Source: a virus
IMG/VR virus record: IMGVR_UViG_3300042301_004612
Coordinates: 1-45,985 of that record
Strand: one strand, 5' to 3'
Length of the DNA: 45,985 nt
Part shown: one piece after another, positions 7,444-44,569 of the stretch
Layout: every line of letters starts with the position of its first letter
Position numbering within the stretch: the stretch's first letter is position 1
The notes under the pieces: model-generated
What the model was told of the DNA's origin: nothing
What the model saw: the letters and a program-made list of their open reading frames with translations, nothing else
The model's database searches: none
Program-made: the position numbers and the translations under genes

Positions 7444-7600
7444 TCAACTACCCATGAATAAATTCACGGGCTTGTGAGTTACGAACACCCACGTTTGGCA
7501 GGTTGACAATTCTGCCTGCCCCATCAAGTATGTTGCCATACGAGAGGGGAAGTTTGGATTTATTTCCAATATTTACAGATGCATTCAGATCCGCATCGTA
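7444..7600 (-). ncRNA. Predicted omega RNA (guide RNA of TnpB)
   Basis: TnpB nucleases are known to use an omega RNA that overlaps the 3' end of tnpB and ends at the RE, followed by a guide copied from flanking DNA. This element keeps that layout: the end of tnpB folds into the RE hairpin and the strand then runs into the 3' end of the portal gene. The guide would therefore be antisense to the last portal codons (below 7444). The extent is approximate and no consensus was checked. Confidence 0.4.
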
Positions 7601-8596
7601 AATTAAACCCGATTTAGCATAAAACCTACGACCACGACGTTCACCTTCGCGTTTTCCAGTTACGGAATCCGTTTGGGAGGTATACATCGGGCAAACACAG
7701 ATTACTTGCTTTCCAAGTATTCTTGCCTTATAAGTTAATATTTCTCTGAGTTTAAAAAATGGAACTTGGGCAATCGCCCGCTTGTTCTGATACTTGTTTT
7801 TCTTTTTCTTAATTCCAGCCAGATCCTCCAATACAATCGTCCCAGCTTTTGTTTTCAATATTTCATTTGCAATCAAATAGGATTGATTTTTGGATTTATT
7901 CTTCTCTTTGTGCTTGAGTTTTTTCAGGTGTCTTTTCGCCGACCGAGTTTTGTTGGATTGCAGACTTCTTTTCAGAAAACGTAATTTTCGCTTCTCTTTG
8001 TTGTATTTCCGATCAATAATCAAACGGCCATCCGAACAAGCGGCGGTGACTCTCATTCCTAAATCAACCCCAAGGGCAATATTTTCAGATTTAAGTTCTT
8101 TGCTGCCGGTCTCGAATGTCAGACCAATCCAGATTTCTCCGTTTCGTTTAAAAACCAATGGGTCTCGGTATGGATATCTCTCCAGCAACTCTTTTAATTT
8201 CGGATAAACTAAAAATTTGAACTGTTTCCGCCCGCTCATCGTTGTTATTTTTAGTCCTTCTTTTGTGGGACAAGAATACAGCCTTTTATCCAGACGAATA
8301 CTCAGACTCTTTTTCTCAATCGCCTTTTCAATTTTATGTTTGTTTGAATTGACGGTTTTATATGCCGACAAACATGCTTGCTCTGCCTTAATAACGACTT
8401 GCGATGGAATATCCGGTCTGATTTTCCGAGTTTTTCCGTAAACTTTGGAGTGCAGAATCATTAAGGAATTTTTCTTGGCCCCAAAATGCTCTTGACTCGC
8501 AAGATTGAACACAAAACGCTCCGCTTCAAGAATCTTCTCTAAATCGGAGAAATCCTCTTGACAGGAAGAGATAAGTTTTGTATTGTAGCTAATCAT
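7448..8596 (-). CDS. tnpB: TnpB RNA-guided nuclease (IS200/IS605 family)
   Basis: A 382-residue protein of normal TnpB length. RuvC-I is ALGVDLGMR (Asp178), RuvC-II is TIVLEDLAGI (Glu257), and RuvC-III is YDADLNAS (Asp336), so the catalytic triad is intact. The conserved PMYTSQT block precedes the zinc-ribbon position, but the expected CxxC pairs are missing: the first is DSVTG and the second AKSG. Related Cys-free TnpB variants exist, so this need not mean a dead protein. TnpB cuts DNA guided by its omega RNA and helps retain the element at empty donor sites. The gene faces the portal, ends 4 nt from its stop, and has its own GTGTAATCT motif just upstream. Confidence 0.9.
   Translation of the reverse strand: MISYNTKLISSCQEDFSDLEKILEAERFVFNLASQEHFGAKKNSLMILHSKVYGKTRKIRPDIPSQVVIKAEQACLSAYKTVNSNKHKIEKAIEKKSLSIRLDKRLYSCPTKEGLKITTMSGRKQFKFLVYPKLKELLERYPYRDPLVFKRNGEIWIGLTFETGSKELKSENIALGVDLGMRVTAACSDGRLIIDRKYNKEKRKLRFLKRSLQSNKTRSAKRHLKKLKHKEKNKSKNQSYLIANEILKTKAGTIVLEDLAGIKKKKNKYQNKRAIAQVPFFKLREILTYKARILGKQVICVCPMYTSQTDSVTGKREGERRGRRFYAKSGLIYDADLNASVNIGNKSKLPLSYGNILDGAGRIVNLPNVGVRNSQAREFIHG
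7451..7470 (-). repeat. Subterminal hairpin at the RE of the tnpB element
   Basis: On the tnpB strand the arms CCCGTGAAT and ATTCATGGG pair over 9 bp with one G-T pair and a 2-nt loop. The hairpin overlaps the last codons of tnpB (REFIHG), a common layout in this IS family, and is very close to the portal stop codon. Confidence 0.7.
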
Positions 8597-8604
8597 CCAA
8601 CATA

Positions 8605-8613
8605 AGATTACAC
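8605..8613 (-). promoter_or_regulatory. GTGTAATCT motif 8 nt before the tnpB ATG (minus strand)
   Basis: Read on the minus strand, GTGTAATCT ends 8 nt before the ATG at 8596, matching the extended -10-like boxes of the plus-strand phage genes. It would give tnpB its own short-leader or leaderless transcript. Its presence inside the element suggests a box used by the host polymerase rather than only by a phage factor. This is inferred. Confidence 0.35.
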
Positions 8614-8692
8614 TAGATTTTCATTTTTTAGAGCTAAAATCTTAATTTTATAAGTTTTAATGAAAAATCCAACAATTTACCGCGCAATTCCT

Positions 8693-8712
8693 CTCACGAA
8701 TAAATTCGGGAG
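8693..8712 (-). repeat. Subterminal hairpin at the LE of the tnpB element
   Basis: On the plus strand the arms CTCACGAAT and ATTCGGGAG pair with one mismatch around a 2-nt loop. The inner GAAT/ATTC core equals that of the RE hairpin at 7451-7470. The target-adjacent motif should lie just to the right (about 8713-8720) but could not be identified. Confidence 0.6.
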
Positions 8713-8730
8713 TCTCCTTGCGTCATTCTT

Positions 8731-16609: not shown

Positions 16610-17674
16610 ATGTCATTCAATCGTAGAATTTCCCAAACTCAGGGTCTTTTCGTTTCCCCCACTGGCGTTGCCGGTGTCACTGGTGTTGCCCAAATCTCCC
16701 GCGTTCAGTCCGTGAATGATGGTTGGGAACTTAATCGTCAGAATGTTAATCAGTTCGGTCAACTTGCCGCTCTTTCCCGCGAGATTGTTGATGCCCCCAC
16801 CGTCAATCTCTCCTTCTCTTATTATGTTACCGATGGTGCCGATGAAGAGCGTCTTGGTTTTGATATTGATGGCGTGAATGGCGCACTTACCAATATTCTT
16901 GATAAGACCCAATCTGAGAAAAATTATTACATTCCCACCGTCCCCGAGGGCGAAGATCTTGCTGGTGAAGCTGTTGCGAATATTGTTGATACCCGCGCTA
17001 TCGGTAACGGCTTCGTCTCCTCTTACTCTGTGGAAGGCTCTGTTGGTGGTTTCCTGACCGCAAACGTTTCTGTTGAAGCCTCTAATGCGGCCTATCACCT
17101 TGGCGGCTCTGGCAACCCCAATCCTGCGATTGATCCCCTTGATGGCGATGCACTTCCCGGCACTTATACCCTACCCGTTGGCGTTACCGGTGACGCGGGC
17201 CAGCCAATTGTTCTTAAACAAGGCGATCTCAGCCTGAATTTCGGCTCTATTGATACTATCGGTGCAATGCTGACTGGTGTCGGTGCTGCCCACATTCAGT
17301 CATTCAATCTCAACATCCCGATGGGCCGTGAACAGCTTCAGCGCCTCGGCAACCGTTATGCTTATGACCGTCCGCTGACCTTCCCGATTGACGTTACCCT
17401 GTCCGTCTCGGCCTTCGTAAATCAGTTGAATACCGGCTCCCTCGCCGAACTGTATTGCGGTGACAGTAAACATGACATTTCAATCGTTGCTAACAACTCC
17501 TGTATTGGTGGCGGGACCGCCGAGATGGTTTATACTCTGAAGGGCGCGACTCTGGACGCCGAATCTTTCACTTCCTCCATTGGCCCGGCCCAGACCGTTG
17601 ATCTGACCTTTACGGCTTCGGTTGGTGGTCCGAATGATGCAATTAATAACATTCTGTTCTCCGGATCGGCTTGA
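16610..17674 (+). CDS. Major tail tube protein
   Basis: A 354-residue, Gly, Ala, Val, Asn and Thr-rich, beta-rich protein with codon bias as strong as the capsid gene, which indicates a very abundant virion protein. It follows the neck genes and lies upstream of the chaperone candidates and tape measure, the canonical place of the tube gene. It ends with its own terminator, as expected for an over-expressed structural gene. It has a duplicated look, with two halves each containing NLSFSYYVTDG-like and DVTLSVSAFV-like strands, but this was not tested by alignment. A sheath is not present nearby, so the tail is probably non-contractile. Confidence 0.72.
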   Translation: MSFNRRISQTQGLFVSPTGVAGVTGVAQISRVQSVNDGWELNRQNVNQFGQLAALSREIVDAPTVNLSFSYYVTDGADEERLGFDIDGVNGALTNILDKTQSEKNYYIPTVPEGEDLAGEAVANIVDTRAIGNGFVSSYSVEGSVGGFLTANVSVEASNAAYHLGGSGNPNPAIDPLDGDALPGTYTLPVGVTGDAGQPIVLKQGDLSLNFGSIDTIGAMLTGVGAAHIQSFNLNIPMGREQLQRLGNRYAYDRPLTFPIDVTLSVSAFVNQLNTGSLAELYCGDSKHDISIVANNSCIGGGTAEMVYTLKGATLDAESFTSSIGPAQTVDLTFTASVGGPNDAINNILFSGSA

Positions 17675-17697
17675 TGATTAAAGAATAAAGTTGGGGC

Positions 17698-17727
17698 AAA
17701 CTTGGGGCTAAAAACCTCAAGTTTTTT
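17698..17727 (+). terminator. Rho-independent terminator after the tail tube gene
   Basis: Arms AAACTTGGGG and CCTCAAGTTT form 10 bp with one G-T pair around a 7-nt loop and run into a T tract. It closes the tail tube transcript. Confidence 0.85.
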
Positions 17728-17765
17728 CTTGACTATTTTTGAAGAAAAACACTAAATATCTTGAA

Positions 17766-18011
17766 ATGGAAAAGCAAAAAATCACAAAATTCTCTGCCGA
17801 CGCTTCAAAAGATCTAATGGAGGCAACATTGGAATCCGGTGAGGTTGTATCTGGCTGGGAAGCAATTCGTGATATTCGTTGCACAACCAAATCCGTTTTT
17901 GACCCGCGCCTTTGCTGGGTTAAGGTGGAAGACGAAATTTGGTATGAGGAAAATTTTTCTGAAAATAACAGAAAGCGCAAAATGATGGAGAAGGGTTTAA
18001 TTGATTTTTAA
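17766..18011 (+). CDS. Small hypothetical protein
   Basis: An 81-residue protein starting at ATG 17766 (MEKQKITKF); a longer form from TTG at 17739 is possible but less likely. It contains ESGEVVSGWEAIRDIRC and ends with a basic segment NRKRKMMEKG. No family is recognised. It sits between the tail tube terminator and the long non-coding region, and may be expressed with that region. Confidence 0.5.
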   Translation: MEKQKITKFSADASKDLMEATLESGEVVSGWEAIRDIRCTTKSVFDPRLCWVKVEDEIWYEENFSENNRKRKMMEKGLIDF

Positions 18012-18824
18012 CAGGAGTAATTACCCAGTATTTAATGCTTTACGGGGAGAAAGCCCCCTATGGAGATGCCCGAGATGCAGGGCGAAAATAATGCAGTCTG
18101 GTCCCTAGAATAGCCGAGCACGCAATGTGGAGGAGAAACCGTTGATATAGTATTCGACGGATAGAAGCCAAGCGCAACGTGGATAAGTCGGGGTTGAACG
18201 CCCGATGGAGGAAAATAGTGCGGGAAATATTGGTAGGATATGGAGCTTTCCCCTCCTTGTCCTTTTGAATTAAAAAAATTCAAGAAATAACGCACATAGA
18301 GTAAAAATCGGCGAAAAGAGCAGAAGCCGGAAACGGATTTACACAAGATACGTCATCTTTCTGGGTTTAGATAATGCCAAAGTCAACTTGTCGGAAAAGA
18401 CAAGTATAGCTTCTGCTTTGTTTTGATGTTTTCTCAATTAAACGAAAGTAAAATGTATTCCAAAAATTGAGGAACGAAATTTTATTTTGGGCTTTGTGAG
18501 GCACGAACAAAACCAAAAGAGATCTTATTAATGTTTTTCCTATTGGGCTATTCCCGCAATAGGTATTAACTTCTGCCAAGTTTGGCGCGGATTGTGCCCA
18601 TTAAAAAGGGCGCGGCCAAGATTGTTTGACCCGCTATAAAGGTTATATAAATCTAGAATTTTTCTAAAACCGGCGAAACACAAAACGGCAAGCCAATTCT
18701 AACGTTTAATCTTACTAAATTCGGTAACTTTACTTATCAATAAGAAGACTATTGTCGTTAAGAACTAATCCAAATCCTTTGATAGTTTCTGCCGACCTAT
18801 CGGTGTGTTTGTCTATCATTTTTC
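18012..18824 (+). ncRNA. Candidate large structured RNA (unassigned)
   Basis: There is no convincing gene on either strand from 18012 to 18974, in a phage locus where other gaps are under 100 nt. The plus strand holds many hairpins. CCGTTGA (18139-18145) pairs with TCGACGG (18154-18160). TCGGG pairs with CCCGA (18188-18205). TTGAATT pairs with AATTCAA near 18264-18282. ACTTGTC pairs perfectly with GACAAGT (18386-18405). CTCAATT pairs with AATTGAG (18433-18471). CCTATTG pairs with CAATAGG (18539-18563). GTGCCC pairs with GGGCGC inside TTGGC/GCCAA (18582-18619). The block ends in a terminator-like hairpin, for a length of about 800 nt. Size, phage setting and structure resemble GOLLD and ROOL RNAs, but no consensus was matched. 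Strand is inferred from the terminator. Confidence 0.5.
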
Positions 18825-18825
18825 A
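18780..18825 (+). terminator. Terminator-like compound hairpin ending the non-coding region
   Basis: An outer stem of TGATAG (18780-18785) with CTATCA (18813-18818) encloses a CCGA/TCGG stem (18792-18803) and is followed by a short T run. It is weaker than the other terminators here, but its position fits the 3' end of the candidate RNA. Confidence 0.4.
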
Positions 18826-18844
18826 ACGATTGTATTTATAAGAA

Positions 18845-18866
18845 CCCCTCCCCCTACCCCCTCCCC
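18845..18866 (-). other. G-quadruplex motif (minus strand) / C-tract
   Basis: The plus strand has four C runs of 4, 5, 5 and 4 bases separated by T, TA and T. The minus strand is therefore a near-ideal G-quadruplex sequence with 1-2 nt loops, and the C-strand could form an i-motif. It lies 20 nt after the terminator-like hairpin. Its role is unknown. Confidence 0.6.
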
Positions 18867-18881
18867 ATGTTTTTGGCCCGC

Positions 18882-18916
18882 CGCGCCCGCCCGCTTTCCC
18901 ATTTCGCGCCCGCCCG
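18882..18916 (+). repeat. 12-bp direct repeat in a GC-rich spacer
   Basis: CGCGCCCGCCCG occurs at 18882-18893 and again at 18905-18916. The spacer is far more GC-rich than its surroundings. A GTGTAACCC motif follows directly (18916-18924), 51 nt before the next ATG. It might be a protein-binding site. Confidence 0.45.
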
Positions 18917-18974
18917 TGTAACCCATTATCGGCACACGGTTCGGTCGGTTTGATTTTGGTTCACGGTTAAAAAT

Positions 18975-19259
18975 ATGAAAGCACAAGACTACTTAGCCTT
19001 TTCGGCGACAAAGGAAGTTAAATACTTATACAAGAGTTTCATCGAGTCTCTGGAAGAGATCGCTCGGCAACACGACTCCGCAATGTTCAAGCTAATGGAG
19101 AATCTACCGGAGGAGCATAAAGGGAAGATTATTCAGGCGTCCTTCTTTGACGAAGAAGCCTATCAGCATTTCCGAAAGTTGGCACTCGATCACGGCAATG
19201 ATTGCGCTCGGGCGATTCTGGACGAGATTCAAAAATATGAAATTGACTTTAAGCGTTAA
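18975..19259 (+). CDS. Small helical protein, function unknown
   Basis: A 94-residue acidic protein, predicted almost entirely helical (SFIESLEEIARQHDSAMFKLMENL). No family is recognised. It is the first gene after the non-coding region and precedes the tail-chaperone candidates, so it is probably an assembly or regulatory protein of the tail module. It follows an A and T-rich stretch (GGTTAAAAAT), with no Shine-Dalgarno sequence. Confidence 0.55.
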   Translation: MKAQDYLAFSATKEVKYLYKSFIESLEEIARQHDSAMFKLMENLPEEHKGKIIQASFFDEEAYQHFRKLALDHGNDCARAILDEIQKYEIDFKR

Positions 19260-19303
19260 AACAGGTAAAATATAAACCATAAACAATTTAAATTATCACG
19301 AGT

Positions 19304-20083
19304 ATGTCCACCGATTTCATCAAAAATAAGAAACCCGAGTATTCCTTTACTTCCTATATTACAGGGAAAGTTACGAAAGAGGAGGTCCGACAAGAAAATG
19401 GCTCGGAGGTCATTGTCAAGAAAGAGGTTGAAGAGAAAATTCCGGTCTCGATCTATTTCTACAAACCAACCCGTCGCCAACGCGAGGAGGCAGATCTTGT
19501 TTACTCTAAAAAGATGTTCTCTCTAATGGAAGAGGGCATTATGACCAAGCAGCAGATTGCGAAAGTCTATAATAATGGTGGCGGCGATCTAAGTAAACCC
19601 GAGGTTGATCTTTATGTCAAGCTCACCACGGAACTTTCGACTAAACTTCGCGATGCCGAATATCTCAATCGGAAAGACCCCTCAACTTGGACCGAAGAGG
19701 AAAAACTTAAGAACGTCTCCGTCATTACTGACATCTCTTTGATTAAACGCGAGCTGATTGAATTTGAGACGCAGCGCGCCGCCATCTTTGAACATTGCGC
19801 CGACCAGAAAGCCTTCTACCATGTCTTGTCTTGGTATGTCGTGAATCTCACCTTCAAACAGATTGGCGATAAGATCGAACCGCTGTTTGTCGGGAAGACT
19901 TTTGAAGAGAAACTGGATAACTATGATGAACTGATTGAAAAGGACGACGAGTTGATTTCGAACATCCGACATAAACTCAATTCTCTGGTCGCCTATTGGT
20001 ATTCTGCCGGGCCGAAGGAAAAGAAAGATTGGTTGCCGATTGAGGAGGAGTTGGGGATTACCCCAGAGGCGGAAAAATCTTAA
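19304..20083 (+). CDS. Candidate tail assembly chaperone
   Basis: A 259-residue, Lys and Glu-rich protein. The first 60 residues look beta-rich (YSFTSYITGKVTKEEV) and the rest helical. It lies upstream of the tape measure, where chaperones that coat the tape measure during tail assembly are normally encoded. Its central part (WTEEEKLKNVSVITDISLI) resembles the layout WTTQDEVWLSQKELEINQLV in the protein at 20324, suggesting distant paralogy. No slippery frameshift site joining these genes was seen. Confidence 0.5.
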   Translation: MSTDFIKNKKPEYSFTSYITGKVTKEEVRQENGSEVIVKKEVEEKIPVSIYFYKPTRRQREEADLVYSKKMFSLMEEGIMTKQQIAKVYNNGGGDLSKPEVDLYVKLTTELSTKLRDAEYLNRKDPSTWTEEEKLKNVSVITDISLIKRELIEFETQRAAIFEHCADQKAFYHVLSWYVVNLTFKQIGDKIEPLFVGKTFEEKLDNYDELIEKDDELISNIRHKLNSLVAYWYSAGPKEKKDWLPIEEELGITPEAEKS

Positions 20084-20100
20084 TTTAATTTATTATATTT

Positions 20101-20286
20101 ATGTCAAACACAATCCAACTAGAGGTCAAGCATCAAATTCGCGAACAGATCGCTAAATTATCAAAACAAATTCTTGAATATAAGCGCCTTGAAAGTTCGC
20201 TTATCCAAGAAGCTCATAAGACATATATTAAGGAAATTGAGCTTCTGGCAGCAGATGCCAAAAAAGATTTAGAGTCTTTGTCTTAA
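20101..20286 (+). CDS. Small coiled-coil protein
   Basis: A 61-residue protein, continuously helical with a heptad-like pattern (REQIAKLSKQILEYKRLESS). It sits 17 nt after one chaperone candidate and 37 nt before the next and so is probably co-expressed. The function is unknown; a small tail-assembly helper is plausible. Confidence 0.5.
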   Translation: MSNTIQLEVKHQIREQIAKLSKQILEYKRLESSLIQEAHKTYIKEIELLAADAKKDLESLS

Positions 20287-20323
20287 TTATAAACCCGGGC
20301 CCGAACGCGGCGATCCGTCTTAT

Positions 20324-21322
20324 ATGTCTAAATTTGACGACCGCGAACTGAAACGCCTCTTTGTTGAGATTACCAAGGGTTACACTGAGGTTCGTCGCGG
20401 CAAAGAGGTCTTCTACATTAAGCATTTTAATCAGGAAGACCAGTTTGAAATTGATGATTTTTATTTTCAAAAGCTAGAAAGCCTAAAAGATTCTGGTATT
20501 CCCACCGAAGAACAGGTCTTGGAACAGTTGGCGAAGAAAAAGATTTGGACAACTCAGGATGAGGTTTGGTTAAGCCAGAAAGAGTTGGAGATTAACCAGT
20601 TGGTTAAAACACGGGATAAGCAAAGCCTGCCTTCTCAAATTGAGTATTTTGATGGACTGATTCAGACCGAAAGGACAGAGTTATTCCGAAAGAAAGCGCA
20701 GCGAGCGGGCCTAATCGGGGACACGAGAGAGCGATTCGCCAATCAATCTGTGAACTCCTATTTCATCCTACAATCATTCTACAAAGATAAGGAATGCCAG
20801 AATTTATTGGTCTCCCCGGAAGAATTTGAAGAGATGGAGGACGACACTCTTCTTGATTTTAGTTTACTGTATAGCAAATCCATGAAGATGTATAATGATG
20901 AGTCGATTAAAAAAGTCGCCGTCTGCTCATTTTTTCAAAATTTATTCTATCTGGCCGAAAATATCCAGCAATTTTGGGGAAAGCCAATAAAGGATCTGAC
21001 TATCTATCAGACGGAATTATCGTCTTATGGTCGGTATTTCAAGTCTGTTCTGCAAAATTCCGAACATGAGATACCGGAGGAGATTCGTTCGGACCCGGAC
21101 AAACTTCTTGGATTCGCCAAAATGGACAACAAGATGAAAGAAAATCTCAGCAAAGGCAGCGGGCAGAATGCGTCGTTTACCGGCACGAAGGAGGATGCAA
21201 AGAAGCTCGGCATAAAATTGACTAATGAATATAGTAAACATGCCAAGAGATTAGGTCGAAATCTGACTCGGGATGATATGCTTATGATTGATAAGGGCGA
21301 GGGGCATAAAATCAAGGTCTGA
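20324..21322 (+). CDS. Candidate tail assembly chaperone or tail structural protein
   Basis: A 332-residue charged, mostly helical protein just before the tape measure. The N-terminus (RGKEVFYIKHFNQEDQFEID) looks like the beta-rich start of the protein at 19304, and the middle has the same W-acidic-helix layout. The last 70 residues are basic (KDAKKLGIKLTNEYSKHAKR). Length and position suggest a chaperone, but a structural role is possible. Confidence 0.45.
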   Translation: MSKFDDRELKRLFVEITKGYTEVRRGKEVFYIKHFNQEDQFEIDDFYFQKLESLKDSGIPTEEQVLEQLAKKKIWTTQDEVWLSQKELEINQLVKTRDKQSLPSQIEYFDGLIQTERTELFRKKAQRAGLIGDTRERFANQSVNSYFILQSFYKDKECQNLLVSPEEFEEMEDDTLLDFSLLYSKSMKMYNDESIKKVAVCSFFQNLFYLAENIQQFWGKPIKDLTIYQTELSSYGRYFKSVLQNSEHEIPEEIRSDPDKLLGFAKMDNKMKENLSKGSGQNASFTGTKEDAKKLGIKLTNEYSKHAKRLGRNLTRDDMLMIDKGEGHKIKV

Positions 21323-21346
21323 GACTTTCTATTTCAGTCGGTTTGA

Positions 21347-21384
21347 GTGTAATCCTTTAGATAGGTTTAAGGATTTGATTTTTC
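21347..21384 (+). promoter_or_regulatory. GTGTAATCC motif with a hairpin before the tape measure gene
   Basis: GTGTAATCC (21347-21355) lies 32 nt before the ATG at 21388. AATCCTT (21351-21357) pairs with AAGGATT (21369-21375), and a T-rich run follows. It could be a weak attenuator, a translation-control hairpin or a promoter. These readings cannot be separated from sequence alone. Confidence 0.35.
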
Positions 21385-21387
21385 ACT

Positions 21388-24300
21388 ATGGCCGACGCTC
21401 CCTTTGTTTTCTCCTCAAGGCTCAGCACCCGTTCTTGGGAGCGGGATGTCAATGCTGGCTTCCGTCGTGCTCAGGCCGGTATCAATCGGCAGAAGATTGG
21501 TTTTAATGTCGATCCCTCTGGTCTAAATAAACTTTCGGCTCCCCTTGGTAAACTCACGACTCAGGCTGGTGAGTTCAATCGCTCACTTGAAGCATCCAAC
21601 GCCCGCGTCTTGGCCTTCGGTGCCTCCGTGGGCATTATCGCGGCGCTTGGCCGTGGTTTTTCAGCCCTTGTTCGTGACGCCGTTGAGGTTCAAGCCGTCT
21701 TAGCCGATATTAACACAATTCTAAAGCAGAGCGCGGATGGATTGTCCCAGTATGAGGCGCAGATTTTCAGCGTTGCGAGAAATACAGGGCGATCATTCAA
21801 AGAAACCGCGACCGCCGCTTTGGAGTTATCCCGTCAAGGTCTATCAGCGGAAGAATCGCTTGAACGACTGAATAACGCACTTATTCTGACTCGTCTCAGC
21901 GGTCTATCTGCTGAGGATTCCGTTCAGAGCGTTACAGCAGCGATTAATTCTTTCTCGAAAGAGGTCTTGGACTCCTCCATTGTTGTTAATAAATTCTCAA
22001 CTGTCGCCGCGAAATTCTTCGTTTCAGAAAAAGACTTGGCGGAGGCCGTCCGTCGCGTGGGTTCCTCCGCTCAGGATGCCAATGTCAGCTTTGACGAACT
22101 GATCGCTGTCGTTACTGCCGCTCAACAGACTACGGCCCGTGGCGGCGCGGTTATCGGTAATTCATTTAAAACAATTTTCACTCGTCTTCAACGTTCGAGC
22201 ACTCTGACAGAACTAGAGAATTTGGGTGTTGCCGTAAGAGATTTAGAGGGTAATGTTCTCCCCGCTGTTGAAATTCTGAAATCTCTCGCTAGTCAGATTG
22301 ACGGGTTAAGTCAGCCGCAACAGGCTTATATTTCCGAATTGACCGCTGGTGTTTTCCAGATCAACCAGTTAAAGGCTATTCTCGGTGACTTATCCGGAGA
22401 GTATTCTTTTTATAAAGCGGCCTTGGAATCCTCGGTCGGCGCGACAAATGAGGCGATCAAACGTAACGAAGAGCTGAATAAAACTTACGCCGCTCAATTT
22501 AATGCGATTAAGCAGACTATAACTCAGATTTCTTCTGTTTTGGGTCGCGACTTGCTCGGCCCCCTAACTCAATCCTTAACTGCATTTTTTGAGTCTGCTC
22601 AAGACACTTTTGGAATTAAGGAAGGCGAAAAAGTCGGTAGTGAATTTGCCTCTGGCATCGTAAAAGGCATTGGTGGGGTAATCGGCGGACCGGGCTTATT
22701 GGTCGCTACTGCGGTTGTCCTTGGTCTGTTTGTTAAACTTGGAAAATTTGCTCTTGGCGCGCTTAAAACCGTCTCCGACTTAGCTGGTGTTATCGGAAAG
22801 AGAAAAGAAATTCAGGCGGAGGTTAATCGTTTGGTCGCCGAAGAGCCGAAACTTCTCAGTCAGATTCTAACCGGGGCAAAATCCGTGGAAGAGGTCGAAA
22901 AGAGAATTCTCGCTTTAATCAGGCAGAAGATTGTAGCGCAGGAACAATTTAATGCCGTTACTTTAGGCGTTGCGACTAGGGCTACCCCGAGGGTAGGTCA
23001 AGGCACTAATTTGGCTCAGGCGGGCTTAGGTTTTAGTGGGGGAACTTTTACTAGTCGCCCGCCCGCTGGTGGAATAAGTCGCGCTCCTAATTTCGCCGAC
23101 CCTATCAAAGCAGCTTTTGACCGTGAGCGTGCGGCGGGCATCCCAGCCAATCAGATTTATGTGGATTCCGACCCAAGAATAAAGGGGCCGGGTAATCCCC
23201 TTGGTCTTCTTATTGCGAATCGTCGGGATGAACCATTAGGTGGTTTCCAAGGGGTGAATCGAGCAATTGCATTAGGTCAAGATCCAAAACGATCAGGAAT
23301 GGGTGGGTCGGGCATTCCGAATTTCGCATTGTTTGATAGAGTCAAAGATTCTAGTCTGGCCGACCCATCTGGAGTTTTACTATCTCCGAAAGAGATTGAT
23401 TTTGTAAACCGTCAAATTATTGAATATGGGGCGGCTTTACAAGAAGGAAGTAAAATTCTTCAAAAGCAGGCAAGGGAAAATATCAAGCTACTTCCTCTGA
23501 ATAGAGAATCCAGAATTCTTGTTGAAAAATCTTTAGAACAAGAAAGACAATCTTTTCGTGAAATCACCAAAAACGACAAAGAAAGAATTAGAGCTTCAAG
23601 AACGATTGCGGAGCAGGAAAAAAGAATTCAAATAGCCAGAAGAAGGGAGGCTATAGAGTCAATTACGGCCCCTTCTGGTAATTTAATTAACCGTGAAAAT
23701 ACTCTTCTTGGTTCTGTAACAGACTTTAGTGGCGTTAGAATTATTGGAAGCGGTGGAGGAAGAAAATCCACTCCGGAAGAGTTTGAGGCGACAAGGCAGC
23801 AATTTAGGGGCACCTCAAGATTAGCCGGACCCTCGCTTATAGAGGGGGTTATTAATCAAGGTAGAAACAAGGAAATCACAAAAGCCTTTGTCTCTAGGTC
23901 TATTCAGGAACGGCGCGGAATTAATCTTCGGGCGGCTTCCGAAAGAGTCCAAGGCGGAAGAAATCTAACATCCTCCCAGTTAAAAGCTATAAGCACCGAA
24001 TCTTTTGTTCAGGCTTTGCAAAGTCCCTCTCTCGCAGGTCTTTCAAAAAGAGAAATTGCAGTAAACCCAGAAGCCCGGAGAGAATTGCGTCGTTTAGCGA
24101 AGGCGTATCGCGATGAATTCGGCAAGGCTTTGGATTCGGCCCAAATTAGTTCCGCCGCTGACCGCGCTTTTACATTCTCTAATTTTAGTCTCGGTTCTGT
24201 CTTCGGAACGGAAAAGGGTGATGAGAAAAGATTCCGCCGTGAATTGGGGGTCAAGCCGGGACAGAAATTATCCCAAGAGCAACAAAATACATTCTTTAAC

Positions 24301-27300
24301 CGCAGAATGCAGACCCAGCAACAAAGAAACTCGAATGTAACAAATCGAGCTTTCCTTGGTTCAATCGCGGCGTCATTTATAGCTCCTCAGTTCGCCGATA
24401 GTAGTCCGATTACAAGTGGGATCATTGCCGGTGCGGGAACGGGGTTGGCGGCAGGTGCTTTGGCTGGTGGCGGAAATCCATTTATCGCTGCCGGTGCGGG
24501 TCTTGCTGGCGCGGGCATAGGCGCAACCAAAGCCATTAGCGGGGCGGATGAAAGAGGCTTTAACAAAGCAGCCTCTGATTTCCAAAATTTAACCGCGAAA
24601 ATTAACGAGAATAGAAATGGCGTTCAGCAATATATTGAGGCGCAGGCGAAACTTAATGACACTCTGAAGGAGGGTAAGGCTTCAACCGAAGATATCGGAA
24701 AGCTGAATCAAAATCTCACCAGCATTTTCCGAACGATTGAGGATCAGGGTCTTCGCCGTGGTATTATTGCCGCCGCCGGAAATCTTGAACAGCTACAAAA
24801 AGTTTTCGCCGAGTTCGAAAAGAATTCAATTTTCAAGGAAGCCGCCGAGTCAATCACCCTGCTTTCTGCCTCTGCGAAAAATAACAAAACGGGGAGGAAC
24901 GCTTTTGGTTTCGGTGGTGACTTCCTTACCCGCGATCTCACTAAAATTGGAGAAAATCTTCTTACGGCAAATTCCGGCGATGAAAAAACTCGCTCTGGCT
25001 TTCTAAGTCTAATCCGAGAGATTGATGAATTGGCCGCATCTGGGAAAACCGAACAGGCGGCGAAAAAGCTGGCTAGAATTAATCCTGCCCTCGAAGGAAT
25101 TAATAATTCTTTTGATATTCGGACGATTACCGGCGCGGCACTAGCATTCAATGATGTTTCTAAAGCTCTTAAGTCCACACAAGAAGTTAATACTGAATAC
25201 CTTGCCCAACTCGGGAAATATCAAAGAGAATTCCTAAAACTGTCTTCTGAATTAATTGAACAGCAACGTGTAATCCAGCTTGAAGGCGAATTACAAACCC
25301 GTCTGACCTTGGCCCGTGTGGGAGCAAATTTGGAGGATTCAACTTTTGGGACGACGGAACGCTCAGCAATCGGCGCGCGATCTTCTTTCAGACAAGCCGA
25401 ACTTGTGGGCCGTTTTAACGAACAGAGGTCGGAACTTGATTCTGGTCTGCGTTCCGATTTGCGGTCTTTCTTATCTGAGGTTCCGCAAACACTCTCTCGG
25501 CAATTCGCCAACCGCATTCAAAGTGGAAACCCCAGACAGATCTTGGATGAGATTCTTCAAGCTACAACTGGCTCGACCAGCGAACTCGGGAAGAAGCCGC
25601 AGGAACAGATTGATAAATTAGAGCAATTACAAAAGACTTTCGACGGCCAACTGACCGAACTTAATAAATCCACCCGCGAATCCCTTGAATTAGAAAGAAT
25701 TTCAGCGGAAGCGGAAAAGCGTCGGGTTGATCGTCAAAATAGAATTGGTCTGCTTGGCGGGGCGAGTTTTGACCCATTGGACTTTTCCGCGATTCAGGCG
25801 GGGCGGGGGGCGGCTACAACCCGATTCCGTGGGGAGCAAATTCTTCGTGGGAATACCGCTGGACTGGATACCAACGCTATCCGTAACACAACACAGTCTG
25901 CTCGTATTTTAGAAACGCAGGGCATTCTTTCTCGCTCCCAACTCTTACCCGGTCTTCCGACGAGTGATCGTGATATTGACACTGCCAGCAAGGCATTTGA
26001 ACAGAATCTTACCGATAATCTCAACCAGCTTGTCGCATCCTCTCTTCGCGGCCTTCTTTCGGACGAGTCTCTTGGGCAGACTGGTTTGGTTTCCGGTCAG
26101 GATTTACGCGGGGGTCTGACTTCTCTGCTTAGTCGTTCGGCACGCGGCGGTCAAACTGATTTCTCCGGTGCTGCTAATTTTGTTCGCGCACGTCTCCCCG
26201 ATTTTGGCTCTGGCGGGGAACTCAAACGTCAGTTGATTGAATTGTTTGAGGAAGCCGCAAGAGATCAAGGAACATTGGGCGAGGCTGGACGGGATCAGGC
26301 CAGAAGTCTTCTTCAGACGGATCAACAAAAAGAGGACTCTTTTATCCAGAGACTTGTTTCTGGTTTTAAGGGCGAGGATATCGCTCGGAACACTTTTGAC
26401 ACGCAAGTTAGAATTGAAGAGCTGAAGAAAGTTTTTGAGGCTCAGACAGCACTAACTGTTAAGTCGGAAGCTGTGTCAGAAAAACAAAGAGAATTGAATG
26501 AGATTCAAGTTAAAAAGTCAGAAGCGGAACGTGAAGTTCAAAGGGTTGTTTTGGGCGCTGAGTTTCAGACAAACCTAAAGGAAAAAGATTTCGTTTCTTC
26601 TATTGGCGGCTCTTTACTTAATCCTATTGTTAATCCATCCGAAAGGTTCGCCGAAACCACTCGGAGGGTATCTGGTAAAGTTTCCCTCTCAGAAGACGAA
26701 AGTGCCCTTGTGGGGAGGGCCGCTTTTGATATTAGAAAAATAATCAATAATTCTGCGACCGTCCAACAAGCGTCTCAGAAGATACTTGGAGAAGATAAGT
26801 TACAGCCGTTTGTCCGTGCTATTTCGGGTGGCGGTGCGGGCGACCCCCAAAAAAGAGAAGAAGCTTTGAACAAATTCCTTTTAGAGTTTTCTACCGCTGA
26901 TGAAACCGTAAAAAATGCAAATTCTAGTCTCAATCAGTTTAATACGCAAATTGGGGCCGTCACCACAGAGCTAAACAAATTGCGCGCAAGATTGGATATT
27001 GATACAAAAACATTTCAGGGGCAATTCGCCTCCCAACCACCTAATATTGTCAGTAATCGCCTATCTAACAGCGGCACCCTATCTGATACACAAAAAAGCG
27101 ATTCCCGTAGGATTATTGGTGGATTTTCCGAAAATCTTCGCGGCGGAACAAATGCGATTTCGGCTTTGCAATCTAATCGGGAGCAGCTTGGGAAGGTTAA
27201 CGAAAGAATTCAAGGTGTGGTTCAGAGAACGATTCAGTCTGGGACCATTTCTCGTTCTGACGAAGCTCTTCTTGACGCCTTGAAACAGAGCCGGAATGAA

Positions 27301-27624
27301 TTAGCGGCGGTGATTAATGCCCAAGAGGAATCTATAAAGAAGGGCGTTACTGAAATCGCGAATAAAACCGCCGAAGCAATGAAAGAAGCGTTTGTTGATT
27401 TACCAGACGCTTTGAATGCAACACTGACACAGAATTTGACTCTGGCTGGTCAGGTAATCCTCAGAGATGGAAAAGTAACAGCGGAAGAGGTTCAGGGCTT
27501 GAATGAGGCTTTCTTAAAATTCATTGAAGAGTATTACAGCAAAAAACTAAAAGAAAAAGCTGATGCTCAAACGAAAGAAAACGGCGGAATACCCACCCCT
27601 CCAACTCAGCGCCCAAAAGCCTAA
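21388..27624 (+). CDS. Tail tape measure protein
   Basis: A 2078-residue protein that sets tail length and is ejected with the DNA. Residues about 70-330 match the TP901/PhageMin_Tail type of tape measure domain (ARVLAFGASVGIIAAL, then FKETATAALELSRQGLSAEES and SVTAAINSFS). Two hydrophobic Gly-rich stretches, about 420-460 and 1005-1050, may insert into the host membrane. The rest is long helical, Gln, Ala, Glu and Arg-rich repeat. By the usual rule it implies a tail of about 310 nm. It follows the chaperone candidates, and the paralogous tail proteins follow it. Confidence 0.93.
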   Translation: MADAPFVFSSRLSTRSWERDVNAGFRRAQAGINRQKIGFNVDPSGLNKLSAPLGKLTTQAGEFNRSLEASNARVLAFGASVGIIAALGRGFSALVRDAVEVQAVLADINTILKQSADGLSQYEAQIFSVARNTGRSFKETATAALELSRQGLSAEESLERLNNALILTRLSGLSAEDSVQSVTAAINSFSKEVLDSSIVVNKFSTVAAKFFVSEKDLAEAVRRVGSSAQDANVSFDELIAVVTAAQQTTARGGAVIGNSFKTIFTRLQRSSTLTELENLGVAVRDLEGNVLPAVEILKSLASQIDGLSQPQQAYISELTAGVFQINQLKAILGDLSGEYSFYKAALESSVGATNEAIKRNEELNKTYAAQFNAIKQTITQISSVLGRDLLGPLTQSLTAFFESAQDTFGIKEGEKVGSEFASGIVKGIGGVIGGPGLLVATAVVLGLFVKLGKFALGALKTVSDLAGVIGKRKEIQAEVNRLVAEEPKLLSQILTGAKSVEEVEKRILALIRQKIVAQEQFNAVTLGVATRATPRVGQGTNLAQAGLGFSGGTFTSRPPAGGISRAPNFADPIKAAFDRERAAGIPANQIYVDSDPRIKGPGNPLGLLIANRRDEPLGGFQGVNRAIALGQDPKRSGMGGSGIPNFALFDRVKDSSLADPSGVLLSPKEIDFVNRQIIEYGAALQEGSKILQKQARENIKLLPLNRESRILVEKSLEQERQSFREITKNDKERIRASRTIAEQEKRIQIARRREAIESITAPSGNLINRENTLLGSVTDFSGVRIIGSGGGRKSTPEEFEATRQQFRGTSRLAGPSLIEGVINQGRNKEITKAFVSRSIQERRGINLRAASERVQGGRNLTSSQLKAISTESFVQALQSPSLAGLSKREIAVNPEARRELRRLAKAYRDEFGKALDSAQISSAADRAFTFSNFSLGSVFGTEKGDEKRFRRELGVKPGQKLSQEQQNTFFNRRMQTQQQRNSNVTNRAFLGSIAASFIAPQFADSSPITSGIIAGAGTGLAAGALAGGGNPFIAAGAGLAGAGIGATKAISGADERGFNKAASDFQNLTAKINENRNGVQQYIEAQAKLNDTLKEGKASTEDIGKLNQNLTSIFRTIEDQGLRRGIIAAAGNLEQLQKVFAEFEKNSIFKEAAESITLLSASAKNNKTGRNAFGFGGDFLTRDLTKIGENLLTANSGDEKTRSGFLSLIREIDELAASGKTEQAAKKLARINPALEGINNSFDIRTITGAALAFNDVSKALKSTQEVNTEYLAQLGKYQREFLKLSSELIEQQRVIQLEGELQTRLTLARVGANLEDSTFGTTERSAIGARSSFRQAELVGRFNEQRSELDSGLRSDLRSFLSEVPQTLSRQFANRIQSGNPRQILDEILQATTGSTSELGKKPQEQIDKLEQLQKTFDGQLTELNKSTRESLELERISAEAEKRRVDRQNRIGLLGGASFDPLDFSAIQAGRGAATTRFRGEQILRGNTAGLDTNAIRNTTQSARILETQGILSRSQLLPGLPTSDRDIDTASKAFEQNLTDNLNQLVASSLRGLLSDESLGQTGLVSGQDLRGGLTSLLSRSARGGQTDFSGAANFVRARLPDFGSGGELKRQLIELFEEAARDQGTLGEAGRDQARSLLQTDQQKEDSFIQRLVSGFKGEDIARNTFDTQVRIEELKKVFEAQTALTVKSEAVSEKQRELNEIQVKKSEAEREVQRVVLGAEFQTNLKEKDFVSSIGGSLLNPIVNPSERFAETTRRVSGKVSLSEDESALVGRAAFDIRKIINNSATVQQASQKILGEDKLQPFVRAISGGGAGDPQKREEALNKFLLEFSTADETVKNANSSLNQFNTQIGAVTTELNKLRARLDIDTKTFQGQFASQPPNIVSNRLSNSGTLSDTQKSDSRRIIGGFSENLRGGTNAISALQSNREQLGKVNERIQGVVQRTIQSGTISRSDEALLDALKQSRNELAAVINAQEESIKKGVTEIANKTAEAMKEAFVDLPDALNATLTQNLTLAGQVILRDGKVTAEEVQGLNEAFLKFIEEYYSKKLKEKADAQTKENGGIPTPPTQRPKA

Positions 27625-27665
27625 CTTAGACTGAATCCGCTCTAATTCCGAAATAGTCCTCATCC

Positions 27666-29267
27666 ATGCTAAATTTTCAAAACGCCCAAGTCCTCGCCCT
27701 CTCTCAGGAATCACAATTCTTGGGCTCGGTCTTCCGTTATTCAGTTCGGAGGGATCTAACGGTTGAGGGCACGCTGAACAATCTGACAAACTTTAGTGGT
27801 GTTTCTGATATTCAATCGGAGATTTCCGGTTTCTTTAATTCCGATGAAGATTACCAAGAAATTCTGATTAACGGGCATTCGTTTGGCCGGGGCCGAATCA
27901 ATTCTATAAGCACGCCGGAGGGAAATGACGTTCAGATCAAACCTTATACGGTCAACCTGACTTGCTGGCTATCTGGTGATTATACAACCCTGTTCGGCCC
28001 ATACTACTCTGGTCTGGCAATTTCTGGTATTCCGCCCGCCGATTTCTCCCGGCTGCAATCAATTTCGGAGAATTTCGACTATACCCGTTCGGATAGCGCT
28101 TTTGGGTATGAACACTCGGTTGATCTCCAATTTGTCTCCGGTTTCAATGTTCAATCCCCGATCCAATCTGCAAAGGCATTGGCGCGAGTTCTGATTGATT
28201 CGAACACCCCTTTTGGTTTTCTGGTTACAGGGGATACCGAAATTGGAAGGAAGTTATACAGAGAATCCTACGATCTGATTTCAAACCAATGCTCTTTCAC
28301 GGAGTCATACACTCGGCCAATCAACGATTCTGGTATTATCTTTACCGCAACAACCTCCTTTAATCGGGACGAGGCCGGAATTTCAACCATAACAGAAGAT
28401 GGGTCTTTTGAATTGGCGACCCCGATTGATAACTATATTGAATTCAATCTTCCCGCTCAGGAATTAAATACCTTCCTTCTGTCCGCCTATGATCGAGCGG
28501 AGGAAATGTTTCAGAAGTATTCCGGGGAGAACACTTATCCTCTGTATACTGGCTACACCTCCTTGTCTCGAACTCTGATCCCCCACGAATCGGCGGGGTC
28601 TTACAATATAAGTTTTACTAATAGTCCGACTCAGATTTCCGGCGTTTCTTGGGAATACACGACCGAGATTAATAAGAACGGTCGATTCTACAATGTTGGG
28701 GAGAACGGGTCGATTGTTGGCCACGGCAATCCCAAACAGGGCTACCCGAAGGCTCTGAATTTTTACGCCGGAGTTAAAGCGAATGCGCCCGACAGAGTTG
28801 AAAGTTTTTATACCGGGGAGGCTCAGACCGCATACCCGCTTTATCGTTTTTCTGAACAGAAGACCCTATCTGAGTTCAACGGGCAAGTCAATTACTCACT
28901 GGCATTCACAGACGATCCCTCCTATGGGGCGACTAATCCCGTAATTAAGACAGAAGAAATTTCAATTGAGGACAGTTTACCGGTTCGAAAAATTAATACT
29001 TTCAACATCTTTAATGCAAAAGAGATTGTTCAACCTCTGAATAATTCAACAATCGGAAATCGCGCGGTTTCAATCAATCTTGTCGGGCAACTCGGGACGA
29101 ATCTAGATCAATTTAAGGAATATGCCAAAGATAAGGCAAATGAGTTTATTCCCTCTGGCGACGATACATTTCTGAATGCCTTATCTTATTCCTACAATCC
29201 AAACGAGAAGAATTTTAGCCTGTCTGCCGGTTGGACTTTCTTTCGAGATGCTCGGCAAGCCCCTTAA
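27666..29267 (+). CDS. Distal tail structural protein, paralogue 1
   Basis: A 533-residue beta-rich protein directly after the tape measure, where distal-tail proteins lie. The segment IKPYTVNLTCWLSGDYT aligns with ILPYTINLSCYPSGYFT in the next gene, followed in both by an FG turn and later by a TESY segment, so the two are tandem paralogues. The C-terminus (VSINLVGQLGTNLDQF) also resembles that of the protein at 39433 (IAIDIIGSLGLNLITY). No catalytic motif was seen. It is probably a tail-tip ring or baseplate-like component. Confidence 0.6.
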   Translation: MLNFQNAQVLALSQESQFLGSVFRYSVRRDLTVEGTLNNLTNFSGVSDIQSEISGFFNSDEDYQEILINGHSFGRGRINSISTPEGNDVQIKPYTVNLTCWLSGDYTTLFGPYYSGLAISGIPPADFSRLQSISENFDYTRSDSAFGYEHSVDLQFVSGFNVQSPIQSAKALARVLIDSNTPFGFLVTGDTEIGRKLYRESYDLISNQCSFTESYTRPINDSGIIFTATTSFNRDEAGISTITEDGSFELATPIDNYIEFNLPAQELNTFLLSAYDRAEEMFQKYSGENTYPLYTGYTSLSRTLIPHESAGSYNISFTNSPTQISGVSWEYTTEINKNGRFYNVGENGSIVGHGNPKQGYPKALNFYAGVKANAPDRVESFYTGEAQTAYPLYRFSEQKTLSEFNGQVNYSLAFTDDPSYGATNPVIKTEEISIEDSLPVRKINTFNIFNAKEIVQPLNNSTIGNRAVSINLVGQLGTNLDQFKEYAKDKANEFIPSGDDTFLNALSYSYNPNEKNFSLSAGWTFFRDARQAP

Positions 29268-29269
29268 TA

Positions 29270-29278
29270 GTGTAACTT
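29270..29278 (+). promoter_or_regulatory. GTGTAACTT motif 6 nt before the ATG at 29285
   Basis: The extended -10-like box ends 6 nt before the ATG and overlaps the stop region of the upstream gene. Spacing equals that at 5485 and 8914. No Shine-Dalgarno sequence is present. The role is inferred. Confidence 0.4.
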
Positions 29279-29284
29279 CCGTAT

Positions 29285-31240
29285 ATGGCCCGCACCGAGA
29301 TAAAATACAATAATTCCTTTCCTTTCTCCGGCCAGCCTACGCCTTTCGTGGGTCGGGTTAAGAATAATATTGTCGCGGGCGAACGTTGGGGGGCGGAAGA
29401 GAGCTGGACTTTGGCAGGTCAGTTGACCGGGTGTGATTTCGAAGATCTGACCACCGCCCAGCTCAACCTAATAAACTCATTCGCTCAAGACTATAAAGAG
29501 TTAAAAATAGTCGAATATGAAGAATTTGAAAGTATAACCGTTGGAGAAACCGGCACACTGGGGTTTGAGGGTGTTTATAAAAAAATATCTGCCACAAGAT
29601 ACGAAAAAGTAGATAGCGACACAACTATTTTGTATAGAAGGATATCGGATGGAAAGTGGGTTTTTGCTTTTGAAGTTTTTTCTTTCCCTTTTATTAGTCT
29701 TGATGAAAAATATATTTCTACAACTTCATCATCTTCTCCGACTGGATTAACATATACTTCCACAGGGGTTCCTAGTGGTGACCCTCCTTTCCCTACCGTT
29801 TCAGACTCAGGAATAATAAACCAAGAAATAGAAATTCAGAAATTAAATTTTGTTGAAATTGATTCTATACAGTTCCAATCCAATAAATACGTTAAGATTC
29901 TGCCTTATACAATCAATCTGTCTTGCTACCCATCGGGCTACTTCACAGGGAGTTTTGGCGTGCTTGACCCGACAAACCGTTGGGAATTAGTAGAGAGCCG
30001 CGACCGCTCGATCAATCTGACTCATACTCTGAGCGCGCGAGGCTTTAATACTTCGGACAGTCAGACGGATGCCTTGGAGAACGCCAAGGATTGGGTTTTA
30101 GCGCGAACCGGTTTTTCAGATTTTCCGACCCCCGAGTTCATAACAAAATATTCGGCAAGCGGGGTCTTATTGTCGCAAAATGAGACAATCAATCGACTGG
30201 AAGGTATTTACGGAGTAACCGAGAGCTATGTTTTGGACGGCCTGAACTCTTGTGATTATGGCTTTTTGCGCTTTACGGTGGAAAATTCCGCCCCACAAGC
30301 GGGTTTCCAAACCGTTTCAATTAATGGATCAATTCAGGGTGGTCTGCATGATGATTTCAGTCTTCTGAGAAACCGCCTACAAGAATTTGATTTTTATTCG
30401 CAAGCCTTACACACTCTGGACAGTGGTATTAATCTCAACCCGACACCAATTAACAAACAAGTTGTCGAGAACGAGTCGGCCCGCACTATTAATTTTTCTT
30501 ATGCCTATGATGACAATCAGCGGGCGGAAATTAATTATGATTATACTCTGGCGATCAACTCTGGCGAATCCAATATTACGGTCGCCTTAAACGGGAATGT
30601 GAACGGACGGGGCGAACTCAAAAATCGGTATGAAAAGGCGGATTTGTATTTTAACACCTATCTCAAACCATCGATTTTCGGTCTGGCTTACTCTGGTTAC
30701 TCTGGCTATCTGGCGGAAAACGGCTATACGGGCACCCCCGTCTTGGACCACAATGAATTATCCTCTTCCGTCAGCAAGGACAAGTTCAATGGGGTCATCT
30801 CTTTTAATTATGAATATTCGGACAAACCTACTCCGCCAAATACTGGTTTAGAATCATTTGATTTCTCTCTATCTTGGACCCCGCCAATTCGCCGCGTCTT
30901 AGCCGAGGAGTTAATCCATCAAAGCGGGTCGATCCTAAGTCCGAAATATGAGGTGACGGATTTAGGTTTTGTCAGCCGGGGTATTTTCAGCCTGAATGGT
31001 TCCGCCGTTCCGACTCGTGATTTTGCTATTACAAGCGGGGATGCCCTTCGGAGTGGGGTTGAAAATTCAATCCGGGCGATCTATTTCGGATATTTCACGG
31101 GCTTTTCTGGAGAATATCTGACGGAGTTCAGTATGGGGCAGACCAACCAAGGGTTGTATAACTTTAATATTGGGGCGACCTATGAGGGATTAGATGTGCT
31201 GAATGACACAGGGAATTATACGGAGATTGTAAATTTATGA
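29285..31240 (+). CDS. Distal tail structural protein, paralogue 2
   Basis: A 651-residue beta-rich protein paralogous to the one at 27666 (see ILPYTINLSCYPSGYFT and the shared TESY segment). It has an extra N-terminal section, about residues 75-175, with AT-rich codons and Ser and Thr stretches (ISTTSSSSPTGLTYTSTG). This looks like an inserted domain absent from its paralogue. Tyr-Ser-Gly repeats appear near 470 (AYSGYSGYLAENGYTG). It is probably part of the tail tip. The duplication may allow a hetero-oligomeric ring. Confidence 0.6.
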   Translation: MARTEIKYNNSFPFSGQPTPFVGRVKNNIVAGERWGAEESWTLAGQLTGCDFEDLTTAQLNLINSFAQDYKELKIVEYEEFESITVGETGTLGFEGVYKKISATRYEKVDSDTTILYRRISDGKWVFAFEVFSFPFISLDEKYISTTSSSSPTGLTYTSTGVPSGDPPFPTVSDSGIINQEIEIQKLNFVEIDSIQFQSNKYVKILPYTINLSCYPSGYFTGSFGVLDPTNRWELVESRDRSINLTHTLSARGFNTSDSQTDALENAKDWVLARTGFSDFPTPEFITKYSASGVLLSQNETINRLEGIYGVTESYVLDGLNSCDYGFLRFTVENSAPQAGFQTVSINGSIQGGLHDDFSLLRNRLQEFDFYSQALHTLDSGINLNPTPINKQVVENESARTINFSYAYDDNQRAEINYDYTLAINSGESNITVALNGNVNGRGELKNRYEKADLYFNTYLKPSIFGLAYSGYSGYLAENGYTGTPVLDHNELSSSVSKDKFNGVISFNYEYSDKPTPPNTGLESFDFSLSWTPPIRRVLAEELIHQSGSILSPKYEVTDLGFVSRGIFSLNGSAVPTRDFAITSGDALRSGVENSIRAIYFGYFTGFSGEYLTEFSMGQTNQGLYNFNIGATYEGLDVLNDTGNYTEIVNL

Positions 31241-44562: not shown

Positions 44563-44569
44563 TTTTAAA

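Follow-up and report, generated by a model that had tools for sequence, protein, structure and literature searches.

A Phage Tail-Operon Locus That Is Non-Coding and Bears a Constant 3′ Domain, Possibly Part of an Accessory Unit Combining a Small Protein with a Long RNA

Introduction

GOLLD RNAs assemble into an RNA cage, often adjoin tRNA genes, and are expressed at increased levels during lysis. In their architecture, a conserved 3′ part is joined to a variable 5′ part (PMC12286853). ROOL (RF03087) is a second kind of large non-coding phage RNA, phage morons are accessory inserts between structural genes, and phage-borne clusters of integron cassettes that lack an integrase have also been described (PMC9892861). 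The locus considered here, positions 18,012–18,974 of the viral record IMGVR_UViG_3300042301_004612, resembles each of these systems in part. The record was analysed over its full 45,985 nt, hereafter called the window; a second copy of the locus lies in the 191-kb IMG/VR record IMGVR_UViG_3300042868_010004, hereafter G001, of which L004 and L017 are pieces.

With GOLLD (RF01998), the locus shares a phage setting, a length of about 800 nt, a non-coding nature, and a plan of conserved 3′ and variable 5′ parts, seen here in two genomes only; it differs in having no covariance-model match and no adjoining tRNA, and in its weak fold energy. The likeness to ROOL lies, at the level of sequence, in a large non-coding phage stretch with no obvious protein partner; a covariance-model match is again missing. 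Like a moron, the locus follows a terminator, carries a promoter-like sequence, is absent from relatives, and includes a small, fast-evolving gene; unlike a moron, it consists mostly of non-coding DNA with an element at the 3′ end that stays constant. Integrase-less cassette clusters come into the comparison through G001, which has such an array at this locus, but the window locus has neither an attC site nor cassette genes.

The original prediction had suggested that the locus may be GOLLD, ROOL, or a new class. Searches with the Rfam covariance models found neither GOLLD nor ROOL, nor a group I or II intron or any other family, at the window or the G001 locus: cmscan of the window returned no match at the gathering score, positions 17,650–19,000 gave nothing related up to E = 10 with permissive filters, and the G001 locus gave no family up to E = 5 under the same permissive treatment. 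The hit that ranked first nominally, Vax2os1_2 on the minus strand (E 0.0016), was rejected as a human lncRNA segment falling on a low-complexity G-rich stretch.

Setting and Coding Capacity of the Locus

Tail genes flank the locus, the tape measure protein (TMP) being encoded at 21,388–27,624 and the terminase at 3549–5420 of the window. The features of the locus and its borders are as follows.

16,610–17,674, plus strand: conserved tail gene upstream of the locus, 354 aa, tail-tube-like in its position only
17,698–17,727, plus strand: intrinsic-terminator-like hairpin closing the 354-aa gene, a 10-pair stem followed by TTTTTT
17,727–17,757, plus strand: promoter-like TTGACT, then about 17–18 nt, then (C)TAAATA as a weak −10, read from the letters
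17,766–18,011, plus strand: small gene g90, encoding 81 aa when read from its ATG, with a coding-like codon score of 0.225
18,012–18,654, plus strand: 5′ body of the candidate RNA, non-coding and variable, 643 nt
18,025–18,234, plus strand: putative multibranch domain closed by the 9-bp helix CCAGTATTT/AAATATTGG, predicted by both MFE and centroid folds (z −1.59)
18,312–18,425, plus strand: predicted long-range stem AGAGCAGAAGC/GCTTCTGCTTT, stable and enclosing the perfect hairpin ACTTGTC/GACAAGT (z −3.0)
18,539–18,563, plus strand: perfect hairpin CCTATTGGGCTATTCCCGCAATAGG
18,684–18,833, plus strand: conserved 3′ domain with two predicted stem-loops (18,684–18,759 and about 18,764–18,833)
18,780–18,823, plus strand: 3′-most hairpin TGATAG...CTATCA followed by a T-run, holding the invariant 34-mer TTTGATAGTTTCTGCCGACCTATCGGTGTGTTTG
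18,845–18,866, plus strand: C-tract CCCCTCCCCCTACCCCCTCCCC, whose minus strand has a G-quadruplex motif
18,914–18,939, plus strand: start of g94's own 5′ region, CCGTGT...ACACGG; the same motif precedes g94 in G001
18,975–19,259, plus strand: downstream conserved tail gene g94

In most TMP relatives, a homologue of the 354-aa gene immediately precedes the tail block; Pfam and PHROG give the gene no name. The stretch 18,012–18,974 is non-coding on both strands. It holds no plus-strand ORF of at least 60 aa and is the sole stretch of at least 400 nt without one in the first 41 kb of the window. On the minus strand, two ORFs of 104 and 70 aa with TTG starts have no Pfam match and look spurious, their codon scores being −0.19 and −0.07 as compared with 0.22 ± 0.11 for genes and −0.12 ± 0.18 for spurious ORFs. 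The original description of a stretch with no plausible gene on either strand, within an otherwise tightly packed tail operon and with no adjoining tRNA, is thus borne out by the ORF list, the codon scores, and the tail-gene neighbours; no tRNA gene occurs anywhere in the window. To that description are now added the conserved 3′ domain, the C-tract, and g90 as a member of the unit.

A Second Copy beside a Cassette Array

Over most of its length G001 is 98–99% identical to the window, and 98–100% outside one diverged block; inside that block (16,690–29,800), which covers the tail genes from about 18,954 to 29,508, identity falls to 83–89%. The block is thus recombinant: tail genes passed from one lineage to another while their proteins stayed nearly unchanged. 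Two further differences between the records lie elsewhere: an insertion at 7443–8730 of the window, which carries the minus-strand gene for a 382-aa TnpB/Cas12f-like protein, is absent from G001, where the empty site is visible at 56,976/56,977, and 43,050–44,576 of the window, about 1.4 kb longer here and unaligned to G001, holds a 528-aa minus-strand ORF with no Pfam match.

The gap between the 354-aa gene and g94 measures 6272 nt in G001 vs 1301 nt in the window, and BLASTN between the two gaps aligns 18,660–18,891 only, at 84%. The order of elements is nevertheless common to both loci: a terminator, a promoter-like TTGACT, a small gene, some 600–650 nt of non-coding DNA, and the 3′ domain. 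G001 alone has one extra gene, of 89 aa, between the small gene and the non-coding DNA, and it places 4.6 kb of unrelated genes between the 3′ domain and g94. These genes include an array with integron-type attC sites (L004:7620–12,090, which is G001:67,619–72,089), marked by a canonical attC at L004:8564–8661, GTTAGGC ends at 7714 and 11,711, and GTTAGGT at about 12,081. The canonical attC (a RYYYAAC...GTTRRRY pair) present in G001 has no counterpart near the locus in the window. One gene of the array, on the minus strand at L004:9207–10,631, encodes a 474-aa protein that joins an FtsK gamma DNA-binding domain to a restriction-endonuclease domain of the Mrr type. The 191-kb record contains no tyrosine recombinase, reverse transcriptase, or TROVE/Ro protein, and its three tRNAs lie about 55 kb from the locus.

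Another GTTAGGC in G001 (L004:6313) is part of a hairpin that has GTTRRRY motifs in inverted orientation, much like the described boundary of a phage cassette cluster (PMC9892861); the G001 copy may therefore lie within the first cassette, and the left boundary of the array may include the non-coding stretch. The 3′ domain itself was considered as an attC site and rejected, its stems being only loosely R-box-like and canonical attC or attI boxes being absent. A second gene-poor stretch of more than 1.2 kb occurs elsewhere in G001 (G001:35,020–36,640, or L017:15,020–16,640); it contains the long inverted repeat GTAATTCTACGTATG/CATACGTAGAATTAC, matches nothing in Rfam, and may be an origin or a further RNA locus.

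The Conserved 3′ Domain and the C-Tract

Between the window and G001:67,338–67,487, the 3′ domain differs at 17 of 150 sites (0.113), a low divergence that might also arise if a short piece had been acquired separately from a more closely related donor; against such an exchange, the sequences on either side of the domain are completely different in the two phages. At fourfold-degenerate sites, the divergence between the same two phages is 0.43 in g259, 0.37 in g332, 0.35 in the TMP gene, and 0.36 in a 533-aa gene, and Fisher tests of the domain against fourfold sites give p = 1.5e-9 and 7e-10. The alignment contains no conserved protein frame, as none bearing a start codon is open in both copies, and the differences follow no clear codon periodicity. 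A divergence so far below that of the fourfold sites, without a shared open frame, indicates that the 3′ domain is a non-coding element under purifying selection.

As to its structure, the domain does not fold with unusual stability. The consensus fold of the two sequences consists of two stem-loops with 45 predicted pairs, with no compensatory change and one U-G to C-G change. Differences are rarer at positions paired in the window's own fold (4/82 vs 13/68, permutation p 0.0045), but no such avoidance is seen with G001's own fold (p 0.49). The second stem-loop, together with its outer AATC/GATT stem, is predicted in both phages, the two predictions agreeing only partially. Taken at the level of fold models, these results are suggestive of RNA structure in the 3′ domain and not proof of it. 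A terminator-like end near 18,818, part of the original prediction, survives in that the hairpin at 18,780–18,818 followed by ATTTTT is real, but the scan for terminators lends it no weight, as it finds 2 matches in the locus vs 2.0 expected by chance.

Directly 3′ of the conserved domain, in both genomes, lies the C-tract. Three runs of C4 or longer occur nowhere else in the 46-kb window, and the equivalent at G001:67,495 is the sole such tract in 191 kb. The highest C-minus-G excess of the window falls at 18,821–18,930; a plus-strand transcript of the C-tract would be C-rich and G-poor, the type of RNA that Rho utilises.

The 5′ Body and the Small Gene

In contrast with the 3′ domain, the 5′ body cannot be aligned to its G001 counterpart of about 594 nt (global z 1.7, reached by 4.5% of shuffles; local z 1.3). 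Either the 5′ bodies have thus been exchanged for other sequence, or their divergence has outpaced that of neutral sites in the genes nearby; the same holds for g90. The locus was originally called hairpin-rich, a description upheld modestly, and locally, not globally. It contains 13 perfect-stem hairpins of at least 5 bp vs 8.5 ± 2.1 in dinucleotide shuffles, of which 3% get to 13, and three stems of at least 7 bp vs 0.9, and the local excess recurs at the G001 locus; yet the whole-region fold is no better than that of shuffles (z −0.41), and unselected 120-nt windows average barely below coding DNA. A sub-domain at 18,308–18,425 is stable (z −3.0, 0/200 shuffles as good), and sub-domains across both loci score z −1.2 to −3.0, the borders behind the better scores having been picked after the folds were viewed. 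The alternative pairing partners GCCAA/TTGGC/GCCAA noted earlier at 18,576–18,619 are literally there in the letters. Overall, the energy-based evidence for a folded RNA is weak, and we infer the structure of the 5′ body from these fold models.

Upstream, G001 has an equivalent terminator hairpin in the same place (L004:5945–5972) and, at the matching promoter-like place, TTGACT-17-CATAAT (10/12); a consensus promoter scan did not pick 17,727–17,757 in the window. The g90 protein shares 40% amino acid identity with that of the same-place G001 gene and evolves fast. No homologue beyond G001 was found in 49 further relatives by profile search or in IMG/VR, and no family match in Pfam, PHROG, NCBIfam, or the PDB. 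Its structure, predicted from a two-sequence alignment with a pLDDT of 82 for a set of five models that disagree (82 to 37), yields zero fold matches at E 0.001 or better.

Distribution among Relatives

Seventy-six relatives with homologues of the 354-aa gene plus g94 or g259 were compared, g94 being matched at 27 loci. At these 27, the median distance from the 354-aa gene to the start of g94 is 153 nt, as compared with 1301 nt in the window, and the gap never exceeds 236 nt except in one open-frame case (L097). Among the loci scanned, ORF-free gaps of at least 350 nt at this junction are limited to G001 and that case. The 560-nt gap of L097 was rejected as a homologue, since it is occupied by an open frame that has no start codon; this frame of about 165 codons (L097:7262–7790) follows the stop of the tail-tube-like gene in another frame and is possibly a programmed frameshift extension. 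Judged by its distribution, the locus is a lineage-specific accessory insert in a conserved tail operon.

Wider searches lead to the same two phages. A covariance model of the 3′ domain run on 50 full relative records and a DNA search of the full relative records both recovered G001 only, as did exact-pattern scans of IMG/VR, while a 23-mer pattern found nothing in GTDB genomes and distant blastn found nothing in INPHARED phages and PLSDB plasmids. As the IMG/VR and GTDB scans register exact matches, the count of two copies holds for the collections searched at this sensitivity. Short DNA matches in relatives (E down to 7e-4) were rejected as AT-rich palindrome fragments of 14–38 nt, and three other 17-mer matches in IMG/VR as chance occurrences inside coding sequence. 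Host inference through TMP relatives in MAG contigs was dropped, these falling in three unrelated bins.

Possible Roles of the Locus

The account tentatively favoured here, at somewhat less than an even chance, is that of an accessory unit that encodes a small protein and, with it, a long RNA whose 5′ body varies while its 3′ domain stays constant. Such a moron-type unit would have been inserted between the 354-aa tail gene and g94. A promoter after the terminator of the 354-aa gene would produce a transcript of g90 and about 800 nt of non-coding RNA, consisting of a fast-changing, hairpin-bearing 5′ body and the constant 150-nt 3′ domain, and transcription would stop at or just past the C-tract. 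The constant domain might serve the 3′ end of the RNA, its stability, or the binding of a partner, and the variable body might confer a specific activity, possibly jointly with g90. This account draws on a non-coding, lineage-specific insert found in the same order in two genomes, with a selected 3′ domain and a shared, unique C-tract, and on the rapid divergence of g90 and the 5′ body; from these we infer transcription, function at the RNA level, and any activity in trans. Both phages are densely coded, and both keep about 600–650 nt of gene-free DNA before the 3′ domain despite divergence beyond alignment. Counting against the account are the shuffle-like fold energy of the whole region, the ordinary stability of the 3′ domain, the partial agreement of its fold predictions in the two phages, and the lack of compensatory changes between the two sequences. 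That the RNA represents an undescribed class of large phage RNA, with a hypervariable 5′ body, a two-stem 3′ domain, and a C-tract, exchangeable together with g90, is conceivable though doubtful. Even less can be said for a GOLLD, ROOL, OLE, or intron RNA overlooked by the scan: length, phage setting, and the GOLLD-like plan (PMC12286853) would fit, but the silence of the permissive Rfam searches at both loci leaves this a negligible prospect.

A rather unlikely, if substantial, competitor confines function to the 3′ domain and the C-tract and regards the 5′ body as exchangeable filler or decayed cargo. The hairpin, with a Rho-type C-rich stretch or a G-quadruplex in the template, would end the accessory transcript and shield the tail genes. 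The C-minus-G peak, the uniqueness of the tract in both genomes, the hairpin just upstream of it, and the weak fold evidence for the 5′ body would all accord with such an insulator; a terminator, however, needs neither 34 invariant nucleotides nor a conserved first stem-loop (18,684–18,759), about 600 nt of filler would not be expected to survive in both alleles of a dense phage, and the terminator scan stays at chance level. The wholly different cargo on the left side in the two phages raises another question, namely whether the 3′ domain acts at the DNA level, as an anchor for site-specific or homologous recombination in cargo swaps. This notion gains from the G001 cassette array on the right and from the GTTAGGC hairpin with inverted GTTRRRY motifs like those of PMC9892861, but it must contend with the absence of attC from the window, of canonical attC or attI boxes from the domain, and of a tyrosine recombinase from G001, and with a domain divergence of 11%, too high for a recently exchanged homology arm; it is improbable, though still to be taken seriously. 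Decayed genes without present function are a poorer candidate still. In G001, one plus-strand frame of the 3′ domain runs for 62 codons without a stop and is aligned by tblastx between both phages, yet in the window it has an internal stop and no ATG start, stops occur in all six frames, codon periodicity is not clear, and protein relatives are absent; selection contradicts decay in the 3′ domain, though not in the 5′ body. A cis-acting leader of the downstream tail genes, setting attenuation or stoichiometry, would suit the position directly before g94 in the window, but is very improbable because G001 puts 4.6 kb between the 3′ domain and g94, which keeps its own 5′ motif there, while relatives manage with about 150 nt.

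Implications

If the accessory unit does produce an RNA, it would be a large phage RNA that no Rfam family covers, built on a GOLLD-like plan of constant 3′ and variable 5′ parts, and this common plan could hint at a shared way of building such RNAs; the constant 3′ domain offers a short, testable handle. If it does not, the locus would still hold a strongly selected non-coding element at a spot for accessory cargo in a phage tail operon, the same spot at which the sister phage G001 collected integron-type cassettes.
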